A stretch of DNA of 64,000 nt from Mesoflavibacter sp. (lineage in GTDB: Bacteria; Pseudomonadota; Alphaproteobacteria; UBA8366; Aestuariispiraceae). Positions within the stretch are counted from its first letter, which is position 1. The number at the start of each line of letters is the position of its first letter. The translations under genes were made by a program, and so were the position numbers. The stretch covers positions 1,426,001 to 1,490,000 of the forward strand of contig CP051228.1 in assembly GCA_017792345.1 (NCBI GenBank). The letters run 5' to 3'. Shown one piece after another: positions 993 to 8,110 of this stretch. Below the pieces are notes generated by a model, which had not been told where the DNA came from, made no database searches, and saw nothing but the letters and a program-made list of their open reading frames with translations.

Positions 993-1556
993 ATGCGCAC
1001 CGACCCGTCCCCCATTCTGCGCCGCGCCCTGTTCGCCACGATCGCCGTGGCCGCGCTTGGCGCCTGCACCCTGAACAATCAGAAGCCGACCGACGAGGGG
1101 ATAGGCTTCCGCAGCCAGCGCTTCGACGACATCGCCGCCATGCGGGAATATCGATCCTGCGTCGATGATGCGGCCGAGCTCGACCGTCAGGCCTATGCGA
1201 CACGGGCGACCGCCAAATACCTGGCCAGCGCCCGCCTTCTGGAAAGCTGCGAAGCGAAACTGGGCGCGGGTGCGGCGACCCTTCCGCCGGAAGAACGGAT
1301 GCACGCTTACGGACTTGCCGTTCAAAACTACATCAAGGGCGGCGACATCGATAAGGCGCGGGAAACGCTGAGCCGGTTCGAAACCGCCTTTGCCGGGCAG
1401 GATCTCTACTATTCGGACGGCTCATCCTTCACCGACACGATGGGCGCCCTGTTGGGCCGGTATGACGGCAAGGATTTCGGTCAGTTCTCGACCCTGAACG
1501 TCAGTGCGGACCTGAAGGCGGAAATGCGCCGCGTGTCCTACTGGGCGCAGAATTGA
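993..1556 (+). CDS. Small lipoprotein, first gene of an envelope operon
   Basis: 187 residues. The ATG at 993 was chosen because a GGAGG lies just upstream and because it gives a proper type II signal peptide: an arginine-containing n-region, a hydrophobic stretch and the lipobox LGAC with Cys25. The mature part is mostly helical, with two cysteines (YRSCVDD and LLESCEAK) and a pattern (YLASARLLESCEAKL, AVQNYIKGGDIDKARETL) that looks like one or two degenerate TPR helices. No family was recognised. It is followed after 13 bases by the next secreted protein and is taken as the first gene of the eight-gene run ending at 7314. Confidence 0.7.
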   Translation: MRTDPSPILRRALFATIAVAALGACTLNNQKPTDEGIGFRSQRFDDIAAMREYRSCVDDAAELDRQAYATRATAKYLASARLLESCEAKLGAGAATLPPEERMHAYGLAVQNYIKGGDIDKARETLSRFETAFAGQDLYYSDGSSFTDTMGALLGRYDGKDFGQFSTLNVSADLKAEMRRVSYWAQN

Positions 1557-1569
1557 GGAGGAGCCGGAG

Positions 1570-2466
1570 ATGCAACGCCTTCGATCCCTCAAGCGCCGAT
1601 TGACCGCCGGGGCCGCCCCTTTCGCCCTGGCCGCCGCCCTCTCGTTCAGCCCGCCTCCCGCCTTCGCGGCAACGGATGGCCCAACCTGGGCGCCGACGGC
1701 CTCCGAACGGCTGGTCAAACTGCCGACCGTCTATCTGAAGAAGTCGATCGACCGGGATTTCCAATCCTCCGGTCTGGCCGCCGCGATCCGCGACCGCACG
1801 GACGAGTTGGGGTCGACGCAGCAGGCAATCCTGGAACTGCAGGACGCCATGGAGATGGCCGAGGGCGAGGTGCGGATCGAGCTGAAGCATCAGCTGCTGG
1901 CCCATAAACAGGCCTTCGTCCAGGCCTTGGGCACGCGCATCGATCTGCAGCGCCGCGAGGCGGAAACCCGCGCGAAGCTTTACGAGAAACTATTGGACCG
2001 GATCGGCGCCGAAGAGGCGGCGATGACGCCGGCGCGCCAGGAGTTGGTTGCGGCCCAGCACCTGGCGCGCCAGCGGTTCGCAAGCGCCATCGGCGATGTC
2101 GACATGGACGTCTTCGGCAGCGGCGCGGAGATGAGCCGCTATTCCGAGAAATATGCCGAGAACCGGGCCGCCATCGAGGCCCTTGCCGCCAAGATCGCCG
2201 CCCATCCGATGAACCGGATGCCGGTCTTCGACGGCGAGGAAATGGACCGCAAGACCTATCTGCAGCGCCTGGCAGAGGACAGCCGCACCACGCTGGCCCT
2301 GTTGGGGCAGGAAGAGGAATTGCTGGGCTATATGGGCAAGCTGGTCGCGCTGGACGCCATGGCGCTGCATGACGAGATCGCCACCGCCCAGGCGGAAGAA
2401 CAGGGCATCGACCCGGATCAGGCGGGGGTCGAATTGTCCGACGCCGCGCGCCTGTTCCTGAACTGA
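1570..2466 (+). CDS. Periplasmic coiled-coil protein of the envelope operon
   Basis: 298 residues with a basic N-terminus and a long Sec signal peptide ending near residue 34 (PPPAFA, then A). The mature protein is alpha-helical and rich in Glu, Gln, Ala and Arg. Heptad-like segments run over about residues 75-150 (DAMEMAEGEVRIELKHQLL and following) and 180-270. No transmembrane helix follows the signal, so it should be free in the periplasm or held by a partner. No catalytic motif or known family was recognised. Spacing to its neighbours is 13 and 17 bases, as expected for one transcript. A structural or scaffold role between the two membranes is inference. Confidence 0.6.
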   Translation: MQRLRSLKRRLTAGAAPFALAAALSFSPPPAFAATDGPTWAPTASERLVKLPTVYLKKSIDRDFQSSGLAAAIRDRTDELGSTQQAILELQDAMEMAEGEVRIELKHQLLAHKQAFVQALGTRIDLQRREAETRAKLYEKLLDRIGAEEAAMTPARQELVAAQHLARQRFASAIGDVDMDVFGSGAEMSRYSEKYAENRAAIEALAAKIAAHPMNRMPVFDGEEMDRKTYLQRLAEDSRTTLALLGQEEELLGYMGKLVALDAMALHDEIATAQAEEQGIDPDQAGVELSDAARLFLN

Positions 2467-2483
2467 GCGAAGGGAGAACCGTT

Positions 2484-2876
2484 ATGGTGAAACGCATCCT
2501 TTTGGCGGCCTGTCTGACCGCCGCGGCACTGGCGCCGCAGCCGGTCCTGGCCGCCGACACCTTGGAAAACCTGGAACGCGAACGGGCGTTGACCGTGCGG
2601 ACCCTGATCGACCCGGCATTGGGGCCGGGCGACCGCGCGGGCAAGCTGGAGATCGCCACCCGGCGGCTGACAGACCTGGAACGCATGGCGATCCGCGACG
2701 ACAGCCTGACCGGCGACACCTCGCCCGTCGTCCGGGTTGCTTTCAAGAATTACGATCTGACCTTCCTGGTCCACGCATCGGTCGAACGCAATGTCACCCT
2801 GATCGACCAATGGATGGAACAGGTCGGCATCACCACCGACAGCCTGATGACCGCGCGGGTCGGGAGACGCTATTGA
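2484..2876 (+). CDS. Small periplasmic protein of the envelope operon
   Basis: 130 residues starting MVKRILLAACLTAAALAP, a typical Sec signal cleaved near LAA (residue 24). The mature part of about 105 residues is charged and helical (NLERERALTVRTLI, LEIATRRLTDLERM) with no cysteine and no recognised domain. An upstream GGGAGA serves as ribosome binding site. Its stop shares a base with the start of the next gene (TGATG), so expression of this protein and the downstream membrane protein is very likely coupled. Function unknown; the position directly before a MotA/ExbB-like gene suggests it belongs to the same complex. Confidence 0.6.
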   Translation: MVKRILLAACLTAAALAPQPVLAADTLENLERERALTVRTLIDPALGPGDRAGKLEIATRRLTDLERMAIRDDSLTGDTSPVVRVAFKNYDLTFLVHASVERNVTLIDQWMEQVGITTDSLMTARVGRRY

Positions 2877-3406
2877 TGGCCGGGACACGGCGCCTTCCCG
2901 CGATGACGACCGGACCGGCGGCCCTGCGCGGCAGTTCGCTGCTGCTCGGCGTCGCCGTTCTAGCGCTCGCTGCCGGGGTGGCGGCGACGGATCTCGGCGC
3001 GGCCGACATCCTGGATTGGCTGACGGATACGTTGGGAACCGCCTTTCTGGGTCTGCTGGGCCTGCTATGCGGGGTCGCGTTCTGGGCCTGGGTCCGGATC
3101 GTCCAGAACCATCCGCGCCGCGATTTCTGGCTGGAGGCCGGATTGCACGCCGCAGCCGCCGTCGCGACCCTGGCCCTGACCTTCACCCTGTTGGGCATCA
3201 GTCTGGGGATCGGCACGCTGGCCCATACCGAACTGACGCCGGAGACGGTTCAGCCGGTCATCGCCGACCTGACCGAACAGTTCAGCCTGGCCTTCATGAC
3301 CTCCGTCATCGGCCTGCCCGTCTCGGCCGGGCTGCGCGCCGCGTTGCTGCTGACCGACAGCGCGGCGTCCCCGCCGGACCTTCCCGATCCCGACGAGAGC
3401 GCTTAG
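2876..3406 (+). CDS. MotA/TolQ/ExbB-like inner membrane protein
   Basis: 176 residues with four predicted membrane helices (about 20-38, 53-75, 88-113 and 133-160) and little outside them. The last two resemble the proton-channel pair of the MotA/TolQ/ExbB family: TLLGISLGIG in the first, then LTEQFSLAFMTSVIGLPVSA in the second, including the small-residue/Thr pattern and the Gly-Leu-Pro break. It is shorter than TolQ or ExbB (about 230 residues) and lacks their large cytoplasmic loop. The start is the ATG of a TGATG overlap. The next two genes encode single-span proline-rich proteins, the usual partners of such channels. The family call is by eye and moderately sure. Confidence 0.5.
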   Translation: MAGTRRLPAMTTGPAALRGSSLLLGVAVLALAAGVAATDLGAADILDWLTDTLGTAFLGLLGLLCGVAFWAWVRIVQNHPRRDFWLEAGLHAAAAVATLALTFTLLGISLGIGTLAHTELTPETVQPVIADLTEQFSLAFMTSVIGLPVSAGLRAALLLTDSAASPPDLPDPDESA

Positions 3407-3415
3407 GAGACCGTG

Positions 3416-3853
3416 ATGAAATTCCTTGTCTTCAACACCGTGGTTCTGGCCGCTCTGGGATATCTGTTCCTGTCCGACGGGCGTCTGGACATCCCATTTC
3501 CACGCAACGCGCCGACGACCGCCGCCGCACCGGCAGCCACACCGGAAGCGCATGGCGTCGCGGTTCTGCCGGAGCCGGTCGAACCGCCGCCGCCAACCGA
3601 AGCGCGCGCACCGGAGGAGACCGTCTTCACCCCGCCGCCGGCAATAGAGGAGGCCGAACCCGTCGCGACCCTGCCCGTGCCGGAAATCCCGACCCCGCAG
3701 GAACCCACCCTTCCCGAACCAGTACCGTCACCCGCGCCCCAAGTGACGCTGGCGGAGGGAACGGACCTGATGTCCCGGACGGAACGGACGCGGGAATTGG
3801 ACCGGCTGATCGAAGATATGGAGCTGTTCTATATCGAGCGGATCGCCCGCTGA
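3416..3853 (+). CDS. Bitopic proline-rich membrane protein (ExbD/TonB-like architecture)
   Basis: 145 residues. An N-terminal membrane anchor (MKFLVFNTVVLAALGYLFL) is followed by about 85 residues very rich in Pro, Glu, Ala and Thr, then a charged helical tail (RTRELDRLIEDMELFYIERI). This is the layout of an inner-membrane protein whose extended Pro-Glu region crosses part of the periplasm. ATG 3416 is preferred over GTG 3413 because AGGAG at 3405-3409 is well placed for it. It lacks the ExbD/TolR C-terminal domain, so an assignment to that family is not supported. It sits between the MotA/ExbB-like gene and a second bitopic proline-rich gene. Confidence 0.6.
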   Translation: MKFLVFNTVVLAALGYLFLSDGRLDIPFPRNAPTTAAAPAATPEAHGVAVLPEPVEPPPPTEARAPEETVFTPPPAIEEAEPVATLPVPEIPTPQEPTLPEPVPSPAPQVTLAEGTDLMSRTERTRELDRLIEDMELFYIERIAR

Positions 3854-3868
3854 CGGAAGGGGGGCGGC

Positions 3869-4897
3869 ATGGGCACCAAGACCACATCCTGGGACGGCGC
3901 CGCCATGACCCTCTGCGGCGCGGCGGTGGCCCTACTGATCCTCTCCAACTTCCAATCTCCGCCCGGCCCGCCCTTGGAACCGCGGCCCGAAGAGGTCGAG
4001 GAAGCGCATCCCCGTCAGCCGTCCGCCGACCAGACGTTATCCATGCCGGTCGCGATCCTGCTGCCCGCGCCGCCCGCGGTCCCTGCGCCCGCCGCGCCAC
4101 CGGTGAGCACCGCCGAACCGGCGCGACCGGTTCAATCCGAGCCGAGCCCGGTCGAGCCCCTCAAACCCCGCCCTCGGGAGACCGCGCCGACGACAGCCGC
4201 GCCCCAGCCTGCGACCCTGCTGCCGGTCGAGCCGATCGTTCCGCAACCGCCCGAGACGCGGCAAGAGGACCCGCCTCCGACGGAAACGGCCGCCCCACCC
4301 GCCCCGCCCGACCCGCAACCGGAAACGGAGATCGTCGTTTCCGAGACGGCCCCGGATTCCGCGCAGACCCTGCGGCAGGGCCGGGCCTTGCTGCGCCTGC
4401 TGGAACAGGATGCGGGGCCGGATCTGCGGATCGCCTGGCCCGCCGACGGATCGCGCCGGGAAGCGCTTTACGCCGCGCTGACCGCCTGTTTCGGCATGGA
4501 AAGCGTGTTGATGGATGGGACGGGGCGGCTGTATCGGACGGCGGCCCCGGCCGGTGTATCCCAACCGCCCGACATGGCACGGCACAGCGGCTTCGTCCGG
4601 GCGGTCGAGGGCGAAATGCCCCGCAGCGAACGGCAGGAACTGGATACGATTTACCGCCATCACCGCCTGTCCCCTGGCAGCGTAAGGCCGGTACGGCTGT
4701 TTCCGCGCCATGCCGACGCGATGCTGCTGGGGGGCCTGTCCGATCTGCTGGGGGGATTGCGTGGCGGTCAGCGGATCGAGGCCCGCTATACGATGGGCAG
4801 CGGCGAAGTCGCGGTGACGGATATCCGTCGTGACGGCACCGCCATTCCCGGCAGCGTCCGCCTGCGGCCGCGTCGGAACTGCAGGGCGGCGACATGA
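3869..4897 (+). CDS. Bitopic proline-rich protein with C-terminal periplasmic domain (TolA/TonB-like architecture)
   Basis: 342 residues. A membrane anchor near residues 11-27 (AMTLCGAAVALLILSNF) is followed by a proline-rich spacer to about residue 160, full of Pro-Ala, Pro-Glu and Pro-Val repeats. A globular C-terminal domain of about 180 residues contains two cysteines (TACFGMES near the middle, RRNCRAAT at the end). The layout is that of TolA and TonB, though the C-terminal sequence matches neither as far as I can see. A strong GGGGGG ribosome site precedes the ATG. The stop overlaps the next gene's start (ATGA). In context it is the likely link from the MotA/ExbB-like channel to the outer-membrane components. 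Confidence 0.6.
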   Translation: MGTKTTSWDGAAMTLCGAAVALLILSNFQSPPGPPLEPRPEEVEEAHPRQPSADQTLSMPVAILLPAPPAVPAPAAPPVSTAEPARPVQSEPSPVEPLKPRPRETAPTTAAPQPATLLPVEPIVPQPPETRQEDPPPTETAAPPAPPDPQPETEIVVSETAPDSAQTLRQGRALLRLLEQDAGPDLRIAWPADGSRREALYAALTACFGMESVLMDGTGRLYRTAAPAGVSQPPDMARHSGFVRAVEGEMPRSERQELDTIYRHHRLSPGSVRPVRLFPRHADAMLLGGLSDLLGGLRGGQRIEARYTMGSGEVAVTDIRRDGTAIPGSVRLRPRRNCRAAT

Positions 4898-5607
4898 CCC
4901 GGTACATCCTGCTGATCATCCTGCCCTTGCTGACGGCGGCCTGTGTTCCGAACGGGCACAGACCCTATGGCGCGCAGGCGGATCTGCCCCCCGATCTGGA
5001 CCGCTCGACGGAGGTGGAGCTGTCCGACGCCTATTTCGCGGCGCTGCCCGACTGCGTCACCATCCTGCCGATGGGAGCCGGCACCGATGGCGGCGCGCCG
5101 GTCCTGGAAGCCGCCATGACCCGGCATGCGCGCGACCGGTTTTCGCGTGTGATTGGCGGCCCGGAGCGCCGGGCTCTGACGGACCGCCTTCTGGTCGACC
5201 TAAGCGTCCCGGAAGATCGCGCTTACTTCGCGCGCCGGACCCGCTGCGGGCATTTTCTGACCTTCGCGCCCTGGGGCGGGGAAGACCTCTATGCCGTGGT
5301 CTATAGCCGGAAGGCGGTCGGGATCGCGGCCCAATTGACGGATGGCGGAGACAGCGCGCCGTTGTGGCGCGCCCGGCATGTTACGGTGCGTTCGGACGGG
5401 TCGCTGCCGCTGTCGCCCTTGGGTGTGGTGATCGGTGCCTTTGAGGCGGCCCGACTGGAAGGGGATGCCGATCTGCCCAATTCCATGGCGGACGACGTCG
5501 CTCGCCGGTTGATCTCGACCCTACCGGATCTCGGATTGCGGACCGGATCGACGGTTCTGACAAATGGCGGCGTCCTGGATAGCGGTCCGCTGACGATGGG
5601 CGATTGA
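4894..5607 (+). CDS. Lipoprotein of the envelope operon
   Basis: 237 residues starting in a 4-base ATGA overlap with the preceding gene. The N-terminus MTRYILLIILPLLTAAC is a classic lipoprotein signal with lipobox TAAC and Cys17. The residues after Cys (VPNG) carry no Asp at position +2, so sorting to the outer membrane is plausible under enterobacterial rules, which may not hold here. The mature protein has paired cysteines (PDCVTILPMG and TRCGHFLTF) and alternating beta-strand segments, reminiscent of small CsgG/LpoB-like folds, but no family can be named. It is the second lipoprotein of the operon and directly precedes the DUF4384 protein. Confidence 0.6.
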   Translation: MTRYILLIILPLLTAACVPNGHRPYGAQADLPPDLDRSTEVELSDAYFAALPDCVTILPMGAGTDGGAPVLEAAMTRHARDRFSRVIGGPERRALTDRLLVDLSVPEDRAYFARRTRCGHFLTFAPWGGEDLYAVVYSRKAVGIAAQLTDGGDSAPLWRARHVTVRSDGSLPLSPLGVVIGAFEAARLEGDADLPNSMADDVARRLISTLPDLGLRTGSTVLTNGGVLDSGPLTMGD

Positions 5608-5655
5608 CGGCGGGTGCCGGTCGATCCACTCTCCGGCGCCTCAGGAGGCGAGGGA

Positions 5656-7314
5656 ATGATGGTCAAGGGTCCGATTCTGATCGCGGCGGCGGCCGGCCTT
5701 CTGGCCACGGCGGCAACGGCGCAAGTGCCGGGAACTCAGCCCGTATTGGGGGCGACCGGCACGGCGGCCGGTTTGGCGCAGGATATCCTGTCGACCGTGG
5801 AGCCCGGCAGCCGGATCGCCCTACGCCCCTTGCGCGGCACGGCCTCAAATCTGACATCCGGCGTCGCACGGGACCTGTATGAAGCCGTCCTGGACGGATT
5901 GTTCGAGGCATCCGGTGGCGCGCATACGATCCTGACCCGCGAACGCCTGAACCAAGTCTATGACACCTGCGAAGAGTTCTTCACCTGCGGCGATTATGCA
6001 GCCCGGTTGGAAGCCGCCCGCGCGGAGGTCGAGGTCCAATGCGCCGCCTCGCCGGGTGTGGAACGGGTGCGACTGTTCTGTTCGGCGGTCGACATCGAAA
6101 CCACGGTGACGGTCGGGCGCGGCAGCGGCGATTTCCCGCTGGCCAGCCTCGCCCCGGCGCAGGACTGGGCCCAGGCCATGGCCGGGATCGCCGCCGAATT
6201 GAACGCGGCCGTCGCCTTGCCCGGCAGCTTGGGCCGCGCGCATATCATCGACCAAACGACCGGCACACATACGGATTTCGCCGCCCTGCTGACGAACAAG
6301 CTGCGGTTCGAGCTGGGGCGGCGCATGACCTTGCGCCAGGGCGACCTTGTCGACGCAGCGCAGGCGCGCCGCCAGTTGGGCTATGAAGACGAACCATTGC
6401 CGGTGTTTCCCGGCTATGTGCTGAACGGCGTGATCTGGCCGGCGGGGGAAAGTCGGGTGACGCTGACCGTCGATCTGAACCATGACGGCCGGACATTGGC
6501 GCTGGCGTCGGTCGATATTGCACGCGACAGCATTCCCGTTCAGTTCCGGGAATCGGCATCCCCGAACGGTCTTGTTTCCGCCTCGGCCCAGGCCGTCCCG
6601 TCCGCCAGGCTGGATCGGCAGTCGGCGATCCGTGCCGCGACCAACCTGGCCCGGGCGCGATTGATCGCGCAATCATTGGGGACACAAGGACCGGCCGTCG
6701 GGATGATCGCCACCGAGGCCGATGCCACTCAGGCCTTGGGCGGTGCCCTCAGCCTGGGCATGCCTTATGACGAGGTGCTGGAAATCCTGGAGCCGGCGGA
6801 AGCGGATGGGCGTATCTCCGTTCACCTGACCGGCCGGGTCGCGCCGGTTGGCCGGAACAGCGGCCCCGACATCCGCGCCGCCCTGAGCCGGAGCATTTAC
6901 GAGACCGGGGACGCCATCGCCCTGACCATTTCGTCGGACCGCGCCGCGCGTATCGGGATATTCGCATGGGGTGCGGACAACCGCGTGGTCCGGGTCTATC
7001 CGGTAGACGGGATGGCCGCACCGGAACTGATGGCCGGGGACGCGGTCACCCTTCCGGCCGCGGCCGAGGACCGGCAGATTCAATCCGCGCCACTGGAATT
7101 GGCCGACATCGACAATCCCGAAGATCACGAAATGCTCATCCTGGTCGCGGCGGACCAGACCCTGGCATTCGAGACCCTGGCCCCGCCGCTGGGTGCCGAC
7201 GCGCAGGAGACCGCCGCCCGGGCAACGGATGGTGCGGGATTCTTTCAGGCCCTGGCCGCGCATGATCTATCGGCGGTGACCATCCTGGCTCTGCCCTATC
7301 AAATCCGCGAGTGA
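5656..7314 (+). CDS. Secreted DUF4384 protein with CsgG-like N-terminal region
   Basis: 552 residues. ATG 5656 was chosen because AGGAGG lies seven bases upstream and gives a good Sec signal (cleaved near TAA/TAQ, residue 22). Residues 30-150 (SRIALRPLRG, then LYEAVLDGLFEA and TILTRERLNQVYD) resemble the CsgG/FlgO/TolB-N type fold, and a second similar block follows near 200-300 (LTNKLRFELGRRM, YVLNGVIW). The C-terminal 140 residues match DUF4384: GDAIALTISSD, RIGIFAWGADNRVVRVYPVDG, LMAGDAVTLP. DUF4384 occurs in exported proteins of bacterial signalling and surface systems; its ligand is unknown. This is the last gene of the operon and ends four bases before the convergent comF gene. Confidence 0.7.
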   Translation: MMVKGPILIAAAAGLLATAATAQVPGTQPVLGATGTAAGLAQDILSTVEPGSRIALRPLRGTASNLTSGVARDLYEAVLDGLFEASGGAHTILTRERLNQVYDTCEEFFTCGDYAARLEAARAEVEVQCAASPGVERVRLFCSAVDIETTVTVGRGSGDFPLASLAPAQDWAQAMAGIAAELNAAVALPGSLGRAHIIDQTTGTHTDFAALLTNKLRFELGRRMTLRQGDLVDAAQARRQLGYEDEPLPVFPGYVLNGVIWPAGESRVTLTVDLNHDGRTLALASVDIARDSIPVQFRESASPNGLVSASAQAVPSARLDRQSAIRAATNLARARLIAQSLGTQGPAVGMIATEADATQALGGALSLGMPYDEVLEILEPAEADGRISVHLTGRVAPVGRNSGPDIRAALSRSIYETGDAIALTISSDRAARIGIFAWGADNRVVRVYPVDGMAAPELMAGDAVTLPAAAEDRQIQSAPLELADIDNPEDHEMLILVAADQTLAFETLAPPLGADAQETAARATDGAGFFQALAAHDLSAVTILALPYQIRE

Positions 7315-7318
7315 GAGG

Positions 7319-8110
7319 TCAGACCGGCGCGGATTCACGCACCACACGGGCCAAGGTCAGAATGTCGACCGCCGCCGCACCGTCCCGTTTCAAGCGCCTT
7401 GCGGCCGCATCGACCGTCGCGCCGGTGGTCATGACATCGTCGATCAAAAGGATACGCCGGCCGTCGATTTCCGCCTTACGGTCCGGATTTGTCCGGAAGG
7501 CCCCCTCGACATTCCGCCGCCGCGCCGGCGCAGACAGATGGCCCTGGATCGGCGTATGGCGCTTGCGGATCAGCGCATCGGATACTAGCGGCTTGCCATA
7601 GGCGGCCGCCAAGGGCCGTGCCAGAAGAACCGACTGGTTATAGCGCCGGTCGAACAGGCGGCGGCGGTGCAGCGGCACCGGCGCGATCACATCCGCTTCC
7701 GGCAGCAAATCCGCGCCGGCCCGCATCATCCAGCGCGACAGGCCGGGGGCCAGATCGGTGCGGTCGCCATGTTTGAATGCGATCAGGATCTTCGCGATCC
7801 CATCGTCATAGGCGACGGCCGCCCTGGCCCGGTCGTAATGCGGCGCGTTGGCCAGGCAGGCGCCGCAGCGCGCACCGACGCCGAAATCCAGTTCGAACGG
7901 ATAGCCGCATTGGGCGCATTGCGGCGCGGAGACGAAACGCGTCTTGCGCCAGCAGGCGATGCACATGCCGCCATGACTGCCGGTTTGCACCCCGCACGCG
8001 GCGCAGCGTGGCGGCAGGATCAGGTCCAGCAGCGCCGATCCGCCGCGCCACAGCCGGGCCATGGGCCCATCGGGCGCGACGGTCCCGTTCAGGGGTCGAA
8101 TGTCGGCCAT
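7319..8110 (-). CDS. comF: ComF family phosphoribosyltransferase-like protein
   Basis: 263 residues. Four CxxC pairs near the N-terminus (PRCAACG, CIACW, CAQCGYP, CGAC) form the zinc-finger-like part. The C-terminal half is a type I phosphoribosyltransferase domain with the PRPP loop ILLIDDVMTTGAT and the RRYNQ element typical of ComF/GntX. The start at 8110 is preferred because AGGAAGG sits nine bases upstream; the alternative ATG at 8062 has no such site. The gene overlaps the end of the rhodanese gene by 22 bases. ComF proteins are linked to DNA uptake in Gram-positive and some Gram-negative bacteria, but the biochemical reaction is not settled. The stop lies four bases from the end of the envelope operon. 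Confidence 0.9.
   Translation of the reverse strand: MADIRPLNGTVAPDGPMARLWRGGSALLDLILPPRCAACGVQTGSHGGMCIACWRKTRFVSAPQCAQCGYPFELDFGVGARCGACLANAPHYDRARAAVAYDDGIAKILIAFKHGDRTDLAPGLSRWMMRAGADLLPEADVIAPVPLHRRRLFDRRYNQSVLLARPLAAAYGKPLVSDALIRKRHTPIQGHLSAPARRRNVEGAFRTNPDRKAEIDGRRILLIDDVMTTGATVDAAARRLKRDGAAAVDILTLARVVRESAPV

Follow-up and report, generated by a model that had tools for sequence, protein, structure and literature searches.

The stretch of DNA analysed here, which we call the window, comprises 64,000 nucleotides of Mesoflavibacter sp. (assembly GCA_017792345.1, contig CP051228.1, positions 1,426,001 to 1,490,000). At 993-7314 it carries an operon of eight genes, g1 to g8, all on the + strand and arranged head to tail with intergenic gaps of 13, 17, -1, 9, 15, -4 and 48 bases. 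The genes are listed below with the number of named loci, out of 80 retrieved with g4, in which a homologue was found.

g1, 993-1556, + strand: predicted lipoprotein of 187 residues, lipobox LGAC by eye; 72 of 80 loci.
g2, 1570-2466, + strand: periplasmic protein of 298 residues, mostly helical by eye, with a signal peptide; 77 of 80 loci.
g3, 2484-2876, + strand: small periplasmic protein of 130 residues with a signal peptide; 77 of 80 loci.
g4, 2876-3406, + strand: four-helix membrane protein of 176 residues with a MotA/TolQ/ExbB-like fold, a candidate ion-channel ring (stator) subunit.
g5, 3416-3853 (or from a GTG at 3413), + strand: one-span protein of 145 residues anchored in the inner membrane, with a proline-rich periplasmic region; 70 of 80 loci.
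g6, 3869-4897, + strand: one-span protein anchored in the inner membrane, with a proline-rich spacer and a C-terminal domain, a candidate force transducer; 70 of 80 loci.
g7, 4894-5607, + strand: predicted lipoprotein of 237 residues, lipobox TAAC by eye, weakly GNA1162-like; 45 of 80 loci.
g8, 5656-7314 (a GTG at 5614 is also possible), + strand: secreted protein of 552 residues with a CsgG-like N-terminal domain and a C-terminal DUF4384; 11 of 80 loci.

Signal peptides, lipoboxes and membrane spans were judged by eye and not by a signal-peptide program. Judged in this way, g2, g3 and g8 begin with cleavable-type signal sequences, g4 has four hydrophobic helices, and g5 and g6 each have one N-terminal span and a proline-rich stretch. 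This agrees with an initial annotation of the sequence, which had assigned a signal sequence, lipobox or membrane anchor to all eight products and had counted two lipoproteins (g1 and g7) and two one-span proline-rich proteins (g5 and g6). A lipobox-like motif near the start of the domain recurs in 85 of 94 homologues of g1 and in 41 of 63 of g7, whereas only 4 of 100 g2 homologues and 3 of 100 g3 homologues have it. The open reading frame coordinates, the conserved gene order and the ratios of nonsynonymous to synonymous substitution (dN/dS) likewise bear out the head-to-tail operon with gaps of at most 48 bases; only the "several" overlaps of 1 or 4 bases claimed at that time shrink to two, one of each length. 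All eight genes are under purifying selection (dN/dS 0.11-0.39 in comparison with a genome of the same genus, G003), and together with synteny this rules out a chance string of genes.

A scan of the GTDB species genomes with an alignment of g4 gave 147 relatives, and the 80 best serve here as the named loci; being retrieved by g4, they all contain it by construction. The counts of gene order rest on these 80 loci alone, 24 further stretches that overlap them (on the same contigs in several cases) having been left out. Among the named loci holding both members of a pair, the two genes are adjacent and in order in 72/72 cases for g1-g2, 77/77 for g2-g3, 77/77 for g3-g4, 70/70 for g4-g5, 63/64 for g5-g6 and 45/45 for g6-g7. 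Not every absence is real, because loci are often cut by contig ends; among the 34 loci with full flanks, g2, g3, g4 and g6 occur in 34, g1 in 33, g5 in 30, g7 in 24 and g8 in 5, which leaves g8 as the variable member of the cluster. The hosts of the best 80 of the 147 loci are mostly Alphaproteobacteria (Rhodospirillales, SAR116 and others), joined by nine Alteromonadales (Colwellia, Glaciecola, Paraglaciecola or Agaribacter) and by metagenome-assembled genomes whose titles give no more than Proteobacteria (four), Gammaproteobacteria (one) or Deltaproteobacteria (one). Searches that include its own genome find g4 in 14 of 59 relatives, in 13 of 289 genomes sampled from the class and in 7 of 398 sampled from the phylum. 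The samples of relatives, class and phylum and the best 80 of 147 loci thus place the conservation of the gene set far beyond the strain; the lack of such conservation, which the initial annotation had named as an outcome that would refute it, is not what is seen.

The fold of g4 is central to any interpretation of the operon. An AlphaFold model was computed from 51 sequences, 50 of them homologues of the named loci that remained after a redundancy filter; it has a predicted local distance difference test score (pLDDT) of 87.2 and a predicted template modelling score of 0.71, with helices at residues 14-37, 42-53, 55-76, 82-115 and 125-164. Foldseek searches of the PDB with this model return TolQ or ExbB at all of ranks 1-9, and the first 14 entries of VIA-align are TolQ, ExbB or ZorA (Z 11.8-9.7, differences below 1 counting as ties; root-mean-square deviation 3.5-4.2 over 120-129 residues, all within model residues 40-176). 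Sequence profiles point the same way, if weakly. MotA_ExbB is the Pfam family hit most often among 23 homologues (6 of 23, best E 0.072); a g4 profile reaches four small PF01618 proteins at E 4.6e-5 to 1.1e-3, in a search of 47 proteins of that family made without filters, and one of the four (at locus L251) passes the Pfam cut-off itself; and in hhalign comparisons with broad TolQ/ExbB/MotA sets the last two helices fall in the expected register. Thr142 and Thr143, conserved in at least 90% of the 51 homologues, align with the TolQ stretch ATALGL, while the other lumen-threonine position falls on Ile108, with the invariant Thr102 and Thr104 nearby; the alignment behind both placements is weak. 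The order of the four helices resembles that of MotA. A cytoplasmic helical domain is missing: helix 55-76 is followed by helix 82-115, the loop is short in the 23 homologues displayed, and the 51 homologues align in 182 columns. Model and searches therefore support the earlier suggestion of a MotA/TolQ/ExbB-type fold for 2876-3406, and g4 appears, by its predicted core helices, to be a remote relative of this family that has no cytoplasmic domain. As a separate observation, the locus L251 encodes at 5954-7684 a three-gene operon in which a small PF01618 protein, of the subfamily to which the g4 profile gives its best scores, is followed by two proteins with one span each (by eye), another candidate small motor.

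Many of the relatives carry, upstream of g1, a block of five genes in the order TM145-SLT-A-B-C; in others the block lies on the opposite strand or is absent. In the genome of the window it is found at C1:1,744,452-1,749,219, 311 kb from the operon. The initial annotation had recognised in the operon the parts of a Tol-Pal or TonB-type machine, which is supported; as a complete machine the operon falls short, since a probable axle of the TolR/ExbD type stands beside it in relatives and far from it here, and so do a lytic transglycosylase and a Lon-like module. The eight genes are thus likely to be about half of a gene set whose likely axle is encoded elsewhere on the same chromosome. Among the 34 loci with full flanks, TM145 is present in 27, SLT in 26, A in 25, B in 26 and C in 26.

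TM145, about 145 residues long, has a single membrane span. The Glu of its membrane helix is invariant, in 44/44 and 18/18 aligned homologues (the two sets overlap); ExbD, TolR and MotB have Asp at the position of this membrane-helix acid. TM145 shares with ExbD/TolR a Leu at +5 and a Phe at +9 from the acid, in rows that were picked by patterns fixing the acid in both families and positions +2 and +3 in TM145. A structural model was made for the protein of Terasakiella pusilla with 44 homologues left by the redundancy filter, a TolR/ExbD-type domain having been expected from the sequence before folding. The domain is well predicted, with pLDDT block means of 93-95 over residues 81-140 (whole-protein mean 78). 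In Foldseek, TolR ranks first (E 0.22) and ExbD eighth (E 0.8), and in VIA-align rows 1-5 are TolR or ExbD (Z 6.2-4.9); by these modest scores the modelled periplasmic domain would have a TolR/ExbD-like fold. In the same 289 class genomes, own genome included, g4 occurs in 13 and TM145 in 14, with 12 shared (P 2e-18, under the assumption of independent genomes, which genomes are not). Fragmentation may explain the three genomes in which the two genes disagree, because their contigs end inside the cluster. Since g4 and TM145, two proteins of one cluster, independently point at the two partners of one kind of motor, each lends support to a motor interpretation of the whole.

Of the other genes in the block, SLT encodes a lytic transglycosylase by its Pfam match (SLT, E 1e-22), and it directly follows TM145 in 36 of the 37 named loci that hold both on the strand of g4. 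Eleven of the 80 named loci (L071, L083, L085, L091, L108 and others) have two neighbouring lytic transglycosylase matches instead of one. By eye, neither A nor B carries an export signal. In C, an N-terminal domain is accompanied by one span and, in many members, a proline-rich tail; Lon-type peptidases fill the first 40 of 44 PDB rows of its profile search (E 6e-4 to 0.53), and Ser78 and Lys127 are invariant in 29 members. The two PDB alignments displayed span the Lys half only. Pfam gave no Lon hit in the same 29 members, and C is best described from its profile as a putative membrane-anchored, Lon-like protein. A occurs in 15 of the 289 genomes, 8 of them shared with g4 (P 7e-9, on the same assumption of independence); five genomes have A and neither g4 nor TM145 (three of these by weak matches), and 5 of the 13 g4 genomes have no A. 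A strict membership of A in the machine is not upheld by this looser co-occurrence, and we therefore treat A-B-C as a separable module.

The sole Pfam match at cut-off among the eight is DUF4384 in g8, g1 and g3 being without any Pfam match, and none of the eight, g1 included, is above the NCBIfam cut-off. A canonical Tol or Ton operon is ruled out by this lack of family matches; in particular, no TolA, TolB or Pal family is matched by the eight products in Pfam or NCBIfam, and the spacer proteins show no known TolA, TonB, TolR or Pal domain, as stated in the initial annotation. Profile searches of the PDB with alignments of g4, TM145, A, g2, g6, g7 and g8 returned nothing useful apart from a weak GNA1162 row for g7. 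The g2 protein is strongly conserved (mean column identity 52%), with no convincing PDB relative by profile search. In g5, Phe6-Asn7 is the same as in 60/60 aligned homologous N-termini (60 of 93 homologues were aligned, the window protein not being one of them). In g6, the proline-rich spacer contains a motif of the LPxPP type, the C-terminal domain, about 170 residues long, is conserved, and SxxxS is found in the membrane helix of 41 of 60 homologous N-termini, the window's own g6 being without it. A GNA1162-like family is matched by 10 of 30 g7 homologues (best E 0.0026), and the PDB entry of GNA1162 is reached by profile at E 0.39. In g8, DUF4384 is detected at E 4e-6 and was present in 8/8 family members scanned. 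The CsgG part of the earlier description of g8 is not detected by Pfam and stands by way of a neighbour family of other clusters, a CsgG and peptidoglycan-binding protein to which the g8 N-terminal domain is homologous and of which one member matches Pfam CsgG; the 100% probability of this comparison is partly built in, because the two profiles recruit each other.

Some further genes recur around the cluster. An additional secreted family is found in 33 of the 80 named loci, in part by weak matches, with one copy in the window's own genome at C1:1,343,782. A protein with sulfatase-modifying-factor and SH3 domains lies near the cluster in 11 of 80 loci (e.g. L100 7277-8722), a histidine kinase family in 8 of 80 (e.g. 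L061 3890-5260) and a response regulator in 6 of 80 (e.g. L139 4295-4975). In the genome of the window, a caspase-domain protein (Pfam Peptidase_C14) with a signal-like N-terminus is encoded about 5 kb from the operon, upstream of the window (G000:C1:1419280-1421772; L060 3281-5773).

We consider it probable, with a good part of doubt remaining, that the operon and the distant block together specify a trans-envelope machine, driven by ions and so far undescribed, which is of the 5:2-motor kind with new parts and operates in the manner of TolQRA-Pal or ExbBD-TonB. Its core would resemble the rotary motors, driven by protons, of Tol-Pal, TonB and the flagellum. The conserved gene string, the folds predicted for g4 and for the domain of TM145, the invariant Glu and the co-occurrence are the foundation of this reading, and from them we infer assembly, ion flow, force and task. 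Two copies of TM145, the one-span protein with the membrane Glu, would sit as a dimer inside a ring of g4, and protons passing at the interface of ring and axle would drive rotation. The force may then be carried across the periplasm by g6, and perhaps g5, through their proline-rich spacers, the co-encoded lytic transglycosylase opening a gap in the peptidoglycan for these proteins. Its recipients would be two lipoproteins (g1 and g7), two periplasmic proteins (g2 and g3) and g8 with its CsgG and DUF4384 domains. A, B and the Lon-like C could form a regulatory or assembly module. Most likely, the machine would serve to move or remodel something at the outer membrane or the cell wall. The terms "energised" and "complex", which the initial annotation applied to the products of g1-g8, are of the kind that we infer here; its term "undescribed" agrees with our own search, in which the titles and abstract openings of the open-access papers listed gave no account of the gene set.

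Several results weigh against this interpretation. For g4, no Foldseek match has E < 1e-3 (best 0.17), the window protein has no Pfam MotA_ExbB (PF01618) match, its homologues match this family only weakly, and the hhalign comparisons are weak. By the tool's own note, a VIA-align Z under about 13 may be nothing unusual among helical bundles; a designed bundle reaches Z 9.7, which is within 1 of roughly the lower nine among the 14 rows of the family, and other helical bundles follow below it. The top rows thus stand about 2 above unrelated bundles and the lower rows do not. For TM145, which is absent from 7 of the 34 well-flanked loci, no Foldseek E value is below 1e-3 either, 0.22 being the best, and ribosomal (0.39) and other unrelated proteins stand between TolR and ExbD. 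Its VIA-align Z of 6 is modest, with MreB next at 4.6; ExbD (PF02472) or MotB families match 0/18 members, and its profile reaches 46 ExbD/TolR proteins only at E 0.01. For g6, the C-terminal domain has no convincing PDB relative by profile search and no assigned fold, nor does it give a TonB/TolA Pfam match even at E up to 10; a weak hhalign signal for a TolR-like domain (P 0.016) was lost with a broader set (P 0.23), and this assignment was rejected. TonB and TolA carry a Ser and a His in their membrane helices, according to the part of PMC12204202 compared. The corresponding SxxxH is present in 0/60 g6 N-termini and is also missing from the window's g6, which excludes g6 as a TonB by membrane motif. 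The g6 helix has no TonB/TolA-type motif, and its transducer role is therefore read from the layout alone.

The strongest competitor, which we nevertheless regard as unlikely, is a further system of the Tol-Pal kind, which would use lipoproteins and OmpA-domain proteins of its own to stabilise or remodel the outer membrane. The TolQ/TolR-type folds of g4 and TM145, the lipoproteins g1 and g7 and the lytic transglycosylase would all fit such a system, as would an OmpA-domain gene, which 10 of the 80 named loci have in the cluster and which lies directly 3' of g7 in 8 of the 9 that hold both. It is harder to reconcile with the lack of TolA, TolB or Pal matches in the eight proteins and with the absence of the cluster from most class genomes sampled. 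Moreover, the window's own genome keeps a PF01618-PF02472 gene pair, presumably tolQ-tolR, and the cluster is therefore not a Tol replacement. As a side observation, the start of the chromosome contig (G000:C1:1-6500) repeats a stretch near its end (4849133-4855399; L273, L274), with identities of 100% and 99.94%. In the first copy about 234 bases occur twice, and the tolQ-like match is split there into two overlapping pieces; the repeat looks like an untrimmed circular overlap.

A Zorya-like anti-phage defence, in which the motor would sense envelope damage at phage entry and trigger an effector, the Lon-like module being either that effector or a switch, appears somewhat less likely still. 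It draws on ZorA among the fold matches of g4 and on a PADLOC scan of eight proteins (g2, g4, g6, g7, g8 and a relative's A, B and C), in which the only two matches, both weak, were of g4 to ZorA (E 0.01) and of C to CARF-Lon (E 0.002). The patchy occurrence would also suit a defence system: g4 is present in 2 of 6 genomes of the window's genus, and three relatives have an empty site. The operon is flanked on one side by a putative 4Fe-4S gene, which we assume as such from reading the sequence and with no Pfam hit, and on the other by a ComF-like gene (Pfam DZR_2 and Pribosyltran), ComF being our own naming. Matches to these two flanking genes lie 78, 132 and 235 bases apart in the empty sites of G002, G004 and G005, which belong to the genus of the window; in G003 the operon is present between them, and in G001 they are about 37 kb apart. 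Against defence stand the lack of the long ZorA cytoplasmic tail in g4, whose 176 residues end soon after the last long helix, and the count of nucleases or helicases by Pfam, 0 of 9 in the proteins of recurrent neighbour families scanned. Outer-envelope lipoproteins are not known to be part of Zorya. No g4 relative was found on plasmids, phages or viral contigs at the search sensitivity used, which also led us to reject a phage or plasmid origin of the operon.

Least probable is a passive scaffold, g4 and TM145 being of motor descent with ion conduction lost, for which the missing cytoplasmic domain of the aligned g4 homologues and a Glu where ExbD, TolR and MotB have Asp could be cited, and against which the invariance of that Glu and the conservation of Thr142 and Thr143 speak.

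If the ion-driven machine is real, the conserved cluster, with two motor subunits recognisable by fold only, a candidate for a new transducer and a complete set of parts for the outer envelope, would add to the few known routes by which inner-membrane energy reaches the outer membrane. The reduced g4 subunit offers a natural test of the minimal size of a 5:2-type motor, and the split locus a clean genetic test of the partnership of g4 and TM145. A bolder proposal, which we put forward tentatively and hold to be rather doubtful, is that of a new lineage of rotary motor that would join Ton, Tol, Zorya and gliding, with a ring devoid of the cytoplasmic domain and an axle with Glu for Asp, powering a large peptidoglycan-piercing machine for moving or exporting a specific cargo, gated from the cytoplasm by the membrane-anchored Lon-like peptidase.

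Compared with TolQRA-TolB-Pal, the new cluster shares a ring-type channel fold, a one-span partner with a TolR-like periplasmic fold, lipoproteins, sometimes an OmpA-domain protein, and the location in the envelope. It differs in having no TolA, TolB or Pal match, in a g4 that is without the cytoplasmic domain and carries an additional helix at its N terminus, in the Glu of the axle, and in additional Lon-like, transglycosylase and CsgG/DUF4384 parts. With ExbB-ExbD-TonB it has in common the channel fold of g4 and, in g6, a one-span protein with a proline-rich spacer and a C-terminal domain, whereas the latter domain has no TonB match and the SxxxH of the membrane helix is lacking. The predicted fold of g4 is also that of the A subunit of the 5:2 motor of Zorya, ZorAB, which differs by its long cytoplasmic tail and by an effector, none being seen among the neighbours scanned. 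The generic ion transporters CCD2 and CCD3, which in the part of PMC12505986 compared have condensed cytoplasmic domains with two or three helices (one size class being "2 or fewer"), are likewise non-flagellar MotA relatives with varied appendages, but g4 has essentially no cytoplasmic domain (PMC12505986). The vWA-type motor-driven force transducers differ in that Pfam finds no vWA in the eight proteins and in their gene set, the present one not appearing in the section of PMC12204202 compared; they are alike in placing a predicted new transducer beside a TolQ-like motor, and in that section more such systems are expected to await discovery (PMC12204202).

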